In this document: positions 23,698 through 47,252 of the stretch, in pieces
How positions within the stretch are numbered: the first letter of the stretch is position 1
Layout: every line of letters starts with the position of its first letter
Assembly (NCBI RefSeq): GCF_902859745.1
Contig: NZ_CADIJW010000005.1
Location: forward strand, 1 to 64,000
From: Achromobacter dolens
GTDB lineage: Bacteria; Pseudomonadota; Gammaproteobacteria; Burkholderiales; Burkholderiaceae_B
DNA length: 64,000 nt
Direction: 5' to 3'
Translations under genes and position numbers: made by a program
Notes under the pieces: model-generated
Database searches by the model: none
The model's input: the letters and a program-made list of their open reading frames with translations, nothing else
What the model was told of the DNA's origin: nothing

Positions 23698-23727
23698 GCA
23701 AAGCGCGCGTCCCGCGCGCCAAAAGCA

Positions 23728-23764
23728 AAGGCAGGATTGCGCCAAGCGCAATCCTGCCTTTTTT
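23728..23764 (+). terminator. Rho-independent terminator after ohr
   Basis: A 16-base stem (AAAGGCAGGATTGCGC at 23728-23743 with its complement at 23747-23762), a three-base loop and a short T-run to 23764. It is perfectly paired. Confidence 0.9.
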
Positions 23765-23847
23765 CATCCGCTCCACTCCCAAGAACAGGCGGCCCACCAA
23801 GCCGTCCGTCACCCGCGCGCAGCGTCATCCGCCAACGCTAAACCAGC

Positions 23848-24144
23848 GCGTAAGCCCAAAAAGGCCGCCCGCGCGGCCGCCTTTGGGCGGGCCCCGCAAG
23901 ATCTTCGGCGATAAGCACTCGCGCCATAAAAACGCCAAGCACACCACCCGTCACTGCAACGCAGGAACCAAAGCAATCGCGAGCACGGTGGGGCGGCGGG
24001 CGGTGGCGGGCGGGGCGTGTAGATGCGCCCGAGGGAAACCGTAGGGAGCCGAAGGCGTACGAGGTTGACGCAGGGGCAGTCCGGAGCGAACGCTCCGGAC
24101 CGCAATCGTAGCCCCGCCCGCCACCGCCCGCCGCCCCGCCGTGC
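23848..24144. repeat. Long-stem repeat, copy A (94-nt core, 34-bp stem) with leading hairpin
   Basis: The element has three parts. First is a hairpin block (23848 to about 23903; GCCCAAA pairs with TTTGGGC around GGCCGC/GCGGCC). Next is about 80 bases with patchy similarity to copy B. Last is the long-stem unit: arms 23983-24016 and 24111-24144 pair over 34 positions with one G-T, enclosing core 24017-24110. The core contains a 10-base-arm palindrome at 24079-24100. Core identity is 91/94 to copy B and 86/94 to copy C, but the stem arms differ from both. It fills the space between the ohr terminator and the convergent livF. Confidence 0.85.
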
Positions 24145-24180
24145 GTCTCAAGAACTCAATCCCACGCAACCGCAAAAGAA

Positions 24181-46475: not shown

Positions 46476-46493
46476 TTTTTTCTTCGTAGGCCG

Positions 46494-46651
46494 CCCGGGG
46501 CGGTGGGCGCACGGGTGGGCGCGCCTACGATTGCGGTCCGGAGCGTTCGCTCCGGACTTCCCCGTCCTCAACCTCGTCCGCCTTCGGCTCCCTACGGTTT
46601 CCGTCGGGCGCATCTGAACGGCGCGCCCCCCCGTGCGCCCACCGCCCCGGG
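46494..46651. repeat. Long-stem repeat, copy C (94-nt core, 32-bp stem), inverted orientation
   Basis: Arms 46494-46525 and 46620-46651 pair at 31 of 32 positions and enclose a core of exactly 94 bases (46526-46619). Read on the - strand, the core matches copy A at 86/94 positions, including the palindrome with GTCCGGAGCG arms. The arm sequence (starting CCCGGGGCGG) is unlike the arms of copies A and B. It follows rodA directly. Confidence 0.85.
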
Positions 46652-46743: not shown

Positions 46744-46840
46744 AACGGCATACATGGTGTCTGGCGTCGGGGCGGGGTTCGCTGCGCGTGGGTGACGAGT
46801 GGGGTTCTGATAACTCCGCATGGTCAGGGGAGGGGCGGTG

Positions 46841-46895
46841 GTGGTCGGCGCGGCGTAGAACGTATTGCGCGTGACGGACCTCTCGCGCCGACCAC
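46841..46895. repeat. Additional long inverted repeat with 31-base centre
   Basis: Perfect 12-base arms GTGGTCGGCGCG (46841-46852) and its complement (46884-46895) flank 31 bases unrelated to the 94-nt core. It lies between copies C and B. It may be a decayed or different member of the same class of structure. The rest of 46652-46959 shows no credible gene. Confidence 0.55.
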
Positions 46896-46959: not shown

Positions 46960-47252
46960 GCGTAAGCCCAAAAAGGCCGCCCGCGCGGCCGGCTTTGGGC
47001 GGGCCCCGCAAGATCCTCCCCTCCATTCCAGTCGTTGGCAAAAACGCCAAGCACACTGCTCGTCCCTGCAATGGCGAAACCAAGACGACGTGAGCCCGTT
47101 GCGTTGGCGGGCGGGGGCGGCGGGGCGTGTAGATGCGCCCGAGGGAAACCGTAGGGAGCCGAAGGCGTACGAGGTTGACAACGGGGCAGTCCGGAGCGAA
47201 CGCTCCGGACCGCAATCGTAGCCCCGCCGCCCCCGCCCGCCAACGCAACGGG
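46960..47252. repeat. Long-stem repeat, copy B (94-nt core, 32-bp stem) with leading hairpin
   Basis: Same architecture and orientation as copy A. A hairpin block (46960 to about 47016) is nearly identical to that at 23848. A partly similar middle follows. Then come arms 47095-47126 and 47221-47252, perfectly complementary over 32 positions, around core 47127-47220. The core differs from copy A at three positions. Beyond the stem a TGAG/CTCA pairing resumes after a three-base bulge. It lies 51 bases from the stop of the convergent Ldh-family gene. Confidence 0.85.

Follow-up and report, generated by a model that had tools for sequence, protein, structure and literature searches.

Repeats such as bcr1 and ERIC occur in many intergenic copies that presumably fold as RNA and influence the ends or the stability of mRNAs. 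These elements belong to different lineages from the Achromobacter units described here, and we know of none of this type that combines a conserved core, a copy-specific stem of about 32 bp, inverted pairing and a preferred distance from an opposing stop codon. The RNase III stalks of pre-rRNA, in which a long double-stranded stalk of free sequence surrounds a conserved RNA, offer another likeness: the Achromobacter unit, known here from sequence alone, also has a conserved core on a free-sequence stalk. REP/BIME elements, which go with RAYT transposases, are likewise intergenic palindromes in alternating orientation, but the Achromobacter units are far larger, have a complex core and occur in a host without Y1_Tnp. 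Families of stem-loops in the bordetellae were reportedly described by Petrillo et al. in 2008. To the extent of the available description (PMC2267715), the bordetellae families are similar in being repeated stem-loops of related bacteria.

The nearest described repeat that we found is the Betaproteobacterial repeat element (BRE; Hot et al. 2011, PMC3110155), which the available part of that report presents as a ~90-bp, mostly intergenic element of Bordetella, associated there with a small RNA that was detected, frequently found in head-to-tail arrays of up to eight and reported also from the Comamonadaceae and Azoarcus; bcr1 of Bacillus cereus and ERIC are named there among intergenic repeats. 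BRE and the Achromobacter units are alike as multi-copy, mostly intergenic repeats. However, whereas BRE is arranged in tandem, the Achromobacter units are inverted (45 neighbouring pairs with facing 5′ ends, two in the same direction) and have long copy-specific stems. They may also be narrower in spread than BRE, which is reported more widely: searches of 399 genomes of the order and 369 of the class with a covariance model of the units (R2, strict filters) gave no match outside the family. BRE was set aside as the identity of the units on the difference of arrangement, as judged from the partial description, and the two may be identical in some part. No tandem array with a unit of at least 60 nt was found in 14 lexA loci of genomes of the family. 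A literature search covering titles and abstract openings, with most subscription journals outside its scope, found no description of the repeat family in Achromobacter. Rfam 15 gave no matches in the window or in 11 loci from other genera, and two loci searched at E values up to 5 gave five matches, all below the gathering score; a known RNA family was rejected, as nothing exceeded the Rfam gathering threshold.

The window is a 64,000-nt stretch of Achromobacter dolens (contig NZ_CADIJW010000005.1, positions 1 to 64,000). A sequence-only reading of it had picked out three repeat units, A (23983-24144), B (47095-47252) and C (46494-46651, minus strand), with self-complementary arms around a common core, and all three were recovered at these positions. 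Our main reading, to which we give a probability of roughly 0.55, is that the three units belong to a multi-copy structured-RNA family of Achromobacter and its relatives that may act as an RNA 3′-end module. The 34 arm positions of unit A form 33 Watson-Crick pairs and one T.G, those of unit B pair at 32/32 and those of unit C at 31/32; over the 94 core positions, identity is 91 for A and B and 86 for A and C, all as originally described, and 87 for B and C. The parts of the three units are as follows.

23816..23824, plus strand: HP0 of unit A, a small 5′ hairpin (CGC-GCA-GCG); the HP0 pattern lies upstream of HP1 in 137 copies
23854..23888, plus strand: HP1 of unit A, a conserved tip GGCCGCCCGCGCGGCC within copy-specific arms (136 distinct arm pairs among 186)
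23983..24016, plus strand: 5′ arm of P1 of unit A, 34 nt, from the arm-pairing analysis
24017..24110, plus strand: core of unit A (P2, P3, P4 and junctions), 94 nt, from pairing and covariation; the same core of unit B was folded
24111..24144, plus strand: 3′ arm of P1 of unit A, 34 nt, from the arm-pairing analysis
24146..24155, plus strand: conserved 3′ end motif of unit A, CTCAAGAAC, followed by a C/A-rich tail
46482..46490, minus strand: conserved 3′ end motif of unit C, CCTACGAAG
46494..46651, minus strand: P1 arms (32 nt each) and 94-nt core of unit C; model R2 matches 46506-46638, minus, at 100.2 bits
46716..46749, minus strand: HP1 of unit C
46780..46788, minus strand: HP0 of unit C, a small 5′ hairpin
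46841..46895, no strand assigned: central hairpin between the facing units C and B, with arms at 46841-46852 and 46884-46895
46966..47000, plus strand: HP1 of unit B
47095..47252, plus strand: P1 arms (32 nt each) and 94-nt core of unit B; model R2 matches 47108-47240 at 106.2 bits
47255..47264, plus strand: conserved 3′ end motif of unit B, CTCAAGAAC

At the spot of the central hairpin (46841-46895), other species have, by eye, hairpins with different but still matched arms, and the hairpin may be another covarying element between facing units.

The full unit, at about 330 nt, is larger than the feature originally described and includes upstream a second hairpin with copy-specific arms. Its order from 5′ to 3′ is a small hairpin (HP0), HP1, a C-rich spacer, P1 (~32 bp) enclosing the core, and a C/A-rich tail. 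HP1 was found in 195 of the 224 copies that have room for it and was missing from the other 29; it precedes the core anchor by 105-114 nt in 79 copies and by 135-149 nt in 115, with one further out. The core consists of P2, with a GAAGG/ACGA internal loop, a variable hairpin P3 and a hairpin P4. Its described length of exactly 94 bases applies to A, B and C but not genome-wide: the distance from GAT to ATCG in 40 host copies was 87 nt (13 copies), 91 nt (14), 92 nt (5), 93 nt (6) or 105 nt (2), and over all copies it ran from 87 to 106 nt. A core pattern with P2 quartets that covary (such as ATCC/GGAT, ATCT/AGAT, AACC/GGTT and ATCG/CGAT) fitted 177 of 233 copies, the remaining 56 being dropped; among the fitted copies a single P2 pair switches between G-C (142), C-G (30), G-T (3) and G-G (2), and P3 with its flanking tetranucleotides takes 57 forms. 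The unit ends in CTYAAGAAC or CCTACGAAG and then the C/A-rich tail, in which A makes up 55-61% at 18-20 nt past the end motif (207 copies). By eye, the parts most constant across genera are the GAAGG and ACGA sides of the loop and the tip of P4, with exceptions.

A search with the core, which the sequence-only reading had proposed, showed it to be multi-copy in the genome and present across Achromobacter. The host genome (6.29 Mb in 114 contigs) has 40 copies according to the DNA search, and model R2 counts 41. Among relatives, a DNA search matched 36 of 61 genomes, all within the genus, of which G003 was the sole member without a match among 37; all 80 loci from named genomes among the matches listed were Achromobacter, and at least 110 stretches carried the repeat overall. 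A first covariance model (R1, in which P3 was placed two columns off) was positive in 53 of 268 family genomes, comprising 42 of the 43 Achromobacter genomes and 11 from five other genera, and a second search of those 11 found up to 39 matches in one genome (G121). Copy number by R1 was uneven: none in G003, two to four in six genus members and at least 12 in 29 of 43. Model R2, whose source alignment A3 includes one false antisense row (window 47160-47244, minus), matched four of 399 genomes of the order, all in the same family, and only the host (G000) among 369 genomes of the class; both searches used stricter filters that lose weak matches. No match was found in the viral contigs (searched with an exact pattern), plasmids or phages, and carriage by phage or plasmid was rejected for this reason. 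The genera carrying the repeat include opportunistic pathogens. The host genome thus offers some 40 natural replicates in which an RNA stem evolves together with its partner strand, and if the main reading is true the units would form an RNA family, so far undescribed, at the ends of genes in Achromobacter and its relatives.

In all 40 host copies the two arms are complementary, with a median of 28/28 positions paired and a minimum of 26 (best ungapped), whereas arms taken from different copies paired at a median of 17/28, and only 52 of 1560 combinations reached 24 or more. There were 38 distinct 5′ arm sequences among the 40, and the median identity between copies was 0.50 in the arms, compared with 0.80 in the core's first 30 nt. 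Neither copies lacking complementary arms nor a common arm sequence was thus seen, and simple duplication was rejected because the arms are distinct. Over all 233 distinct copies, 219 reached 24/28 arm pairs and two fell below 20. The covariation across P1 first noticed in the three units, with arms specific to each copy and complementary within it, therefore extends beyond the window. When 31 Achromobacter copies were aligned, 95.5% of cells paired and 22 of 45 pairs had two-sided changes, the innermost P1 columns (17-19) being frequently unpaired; the covariation score was 0.419, compared with 0.083 for shuffled alignments (0/500 as high) and 0.044-0.065 for slid ones. In an alignment of 61 matches that included other genera (one match being false), 92.3% of cells paired, two-sided changes occurred in 42/45 pairs and the score was 0.655 against 0.135 shuffled and 0.068-0.099 slid; having been fitted to the structure, this alignment is biased towards it, and P3 paired in only 64.9% of cells in its register. 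Base-pair covariation above shuffled and slid controls, as expected of a structured RNA, was thus found, and it extends from P1 to the short inner helices.

A symmetric mutation process should give equal numbers of G.T and A.C mismatches in the stem. Interior P1 mismatches in Achromobacter, counted when flanked by three Watson-Crick pairs on each side, fell into 55 distinct contexts for G.T but only 12 for A.C (raw counts 90 and 12; p 1e-7). The sense strand therefore shows the asymmetry of a structured RNA, in which G.U is tolerated and A.C is not, and the presence of G.T rather than A.C on one strand indicates that it is this strand that folds. RNA is the simplest form for it to fold in, but single-stranded DNA tolerates G.T too, and the bias does not prove a folded RNA over a folded DNA strand. 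Consistent with this, the sense strand had the more stable fold in 226 of 233 copies, and the stretch around unit B gave a z of -7.26. The G.T excess arose from C to T changes on the sense strand (36) far more than from G to A (5), and strand-biased deamination could add to it. C-to-T mutation pressure was held a less likely cause, since outside the pairs the sense strand is rich in C (0.40-0.45) and poor in T (0.09-0.12), which argues against strong pressure of this kind. HP1 mismatches (G.T 5, A.C 3) were too few for a strand test. In other genera the few P1 mismatches were G.U 6 and A.C 3, and the inner pairs of the structure-fitted alignment had more A.C (27) than G.U (8); the strand asymmetry is accordingly established for P1 of Achromobacter only. 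Three explanations had been offered at the outset, a structured RNA, a hairpin substrate of a transposase-like enzyme and arms kept alike by template switching, and the first is now the best supported through G.U tolerance on one strand, sense-strand stability and inner-helix covariation; this support is for folding, while function is inferred.

The second of these explanations, and the search for a RAYT- or IS200-like gene that went with it, fared worst. Some stems do have GTAG at their foot, on the strand opposite sense (as at the end of unit C in the window), and GTAG-tagged palindromes are a known class, as the available part of one account has it (PMC3733652). However, the Y1_Tnp domain (PF01797) was absent from the host genome and occurred in only 10 of 43 genus genomes, although units are present in 42 of 43; the strand that folds, by the G.T bias, is the other one; and many copies end in CTYAAGAAC without GTAG there. 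A RAYT was rejected on its absence from the host, and we regard a hairpin substrate of a RAYT/IS200-type transposase as very improbable.

The copies also make it testable whether pairing of a long stem is kept by two-step compensation or by template switching in a single event. If compensation proceeds in two steps, mostly one-sided changes are expected at the shortest distance. An earlier ortholog comparison had set aside 100 of 403 pairs; here 72 disjoint ortholog pairs were used, of which seven were set aside because their arms were too different for alignment, and stems were trimmed to four identical pairs at each end, so that changes at stem ends are not counted. In the closest bin (flanks at least 96% identical; 10 pairs, 321 stem columns) there were 13 double Watson-Crick changes, eight of them transversions, and three paired indels, against three one-sided changes, while the adjoining spacer differed at 78 of 875 sites. 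With flanks of 93-96% (12 pairs) there were 11 double changes, one double non-Watson-Crick change and one paired indel versus 16 one-sided changes and one one-sided indel; at 88-93% (18 pairs) there were 39 double and 15 one-sided changes, and below 88% (25 pairs) 47 and 24. One-sided changes thus predominate in the second bin but not in the closest. In one paired indel, unit B and its ortholog in G015 differ by an extra G in one arm and an extra C in the other. The excess of double over one-sided changes in the closest orthologs suggests that template switching probably helps to keep the P1 arms matched. The idea that it alone keeps them alike fits less well: it is supported as a contributor by the closest bin (13 against 3) but not by the next (11 against 16), and it leaves the strand bias and the short inner helices unexplained, which indicates that selection and template switching both act. 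Monttinen and Loytynoja (2022, PMC8794818) put template switching forward as a source of compensatory changes of several bases in RNA stems, a process that fits the coupled changes of the Achromobacter stems; as far as the available part of that work goes, it covers rRNA hairpins, whereas the Achromobacter stems are ~32 bp around ~94 nt and belong to a repeat family.

Within the window the units all lie between convergent genes, unit A between OsmC (+) and a branched-chain ABC ATPase (-), and C and B, an inverted pair with facing 5′ ends, between FtsW/RodA (+) and Ldh_2 (-). The corresponding claim is only partly true beyond the window: among 140 copies with genes on both sides (called with a simple gene caller, copies lacking a called gene on a side being excluded), 84 were convergent, 53 codirectional and three divergent. 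On the 5′ side a same-strand gene was present in 120 of 145 copies. On the 3′ side, 114 of 157 copies face an opposing gene, whose stop codon lies at a median of 53.5 nt and, in 92 of the 114, within 100 nt of the 3′ end of the unit; in the other 43 the next gene is on the same strand, a median of 228 nt away, which counts against a 3′-end module. Neighbouring copies less than 1.6 kb apart were inverted with facing 5′ ends in 45 of 47 cases, and in the same direction in two. In 137 copies the sequence upstream of HP0 had no promoter-like signal in a constant position, and an own promoter was rejected on this basis; the unit is therefore taken to be carried in transcripts of the upstream gene. 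It seems to us likely that selection favours folding of the sense strand as RNA within such transcripts, and that the two-sided P1 changes arise partly by template switching.

The lack of a positioned -10/-35 signal upstream of HP0 in these 137 copies also bears on the idea that the repeats encode a multi-copy trans-acting small RNA, transcribed from an own promoter between facing units and cut from its stalk by RNase III as rRNAs are. Facing 5′ ends would suit divergent promoters, and a conserved core in a stem of free sequence would resemble, by analogy, an RNase III processing stalk; conservation, however, reaches beyond the core, and we consider a trans-acting RNA improbable.

Anatomy, strand, placement and paired arrangement fit instead a structured RNA on read-through transcripts that end before the opposing gene. 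Read-through from one gene would reach a sense-oriented unit just ahead of the opposing gene's stop codon. The long P1 stem might then block or direct ribonucleases, most naturally RNase III given the length of the stem and its free sequence, and Rho could act on the stretches that are rich in C and poor in G. Transcripts would in this way end before turning antisense to the neighbouring gene, one inverted pair would serve both convergent genes, and the two-sided P1 changes would arise partly through template switching at replication. The available part of one report (PMC7821165) describes convergent bacterial genes whose 3′ UTRs overlap and are processed by RNase III. The specific assignment of the unit as a 3′-end module between convergent genes is tentative. 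About as tentative is an undescribed RNA class in which a core on a ~32-bp stalk would be a two-sided transcript insulator at dozens of convergent ends, with template switching letting the stalks drift and yet stay perfect. At the osmC locus, a terminator-like hairpin with a T-run (23727-23764) precedes unit A, so that unit A is unnecessary for ending osmC transcripts.

The spacers of the window were compared across 30 genomes. The ftsW spacer had matches to both cores in 11 genomes and to one core in 11 (five of these loci stopping short of the far gene); G027 had the two units fused through the P4 palindrome, and seven genomes had no match. For the osmC spacer the counts were four genomes with both cores, 10 with one and 15 with no match, and G024 had a fusion. 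The 15 osmC spacers without a matched core and the uneven copy number count against a 3′-end module, while the presence of both ftsW-spacer units in 11 of 30 genomes speaks for persistence. These observations also bear on the possibility that the unit is a non-autonomous mobile DNA hairpin, MITE- or REP-like, that spreads into the 3′ regions of genes without a cellular role, its arms kept alike only by template switching. Such an element would account for the high and variable copy number, with zero in G003, for insertion-like placement past stop codons, for the coupled double changes and paired indels in the stems and for the IS genes beside or between units in G128. It would also suit two host copies (L005 and L007) that match at 96% over 563 nt and have a common end just past the CTTAAGAAC motif, the likeness running from the upstream contig end to just past the 3′ end motif. 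However, template switching alone predicts no strand bias, yet G.T exceeds A.C by 55 to 12, and it does not explain covariation of inner helices of 3-4 bp. Neither a clean empty site nor a target duplication was found in the ftsW and osmC spacers, which were read closely and had deletions or ambiguous junctions; two of the shorter sites, those in G024 and G027, resemble deletions with a fusion across the P4 palindrome, the ftsW spacer retains both units in the 11 genomes noted, and no transposase is tied to the repeat family. We regard a mobile hairpin as the main rival explanation, though a somewhat unlikely one. An autonomous carrier, considered for pairs 2.5-3.6 kb apart in G128, was rejected because the inner gene is an IS256-type Transposase_mut that also lies beside one single unit. 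This gene encodes 398 aa and lies between unit halves or beside a single unit (L288, L289, L290 and L293). A shorter gap was seen in 954 of 2023 flank comparisons.

In the five closest genomes, the arms at the osmC spacer were nearly the same but there were four different P2/P3 variants, which suggests that pieces of the core are exchanged between copies. At one osmC spacer (L207, in G065) both units have the same extra GC-rich insert near P4, as if it had been copied from one paired unit to the other. In several species palindromic GTGTCTGACACC repeats share the spacers with the units, namely the ftsW spacers of L217, L219 and L223 and the osmC spacers of L193, L194, L195 and L203. Directly after ftsW, L217 and L219 have a row of TTCTTCGTAGG-like motifs ahead of the unit. 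Contig ends lie within about 1 kb of six copies (L005, L006, L007, L017, L019 and L026), and the ftsW match is near contig ends in G004, G006, G028 and G031. As several copies are near contig ends, the hairpins of the unit may break short-read assemblies and so explain some of these ends.
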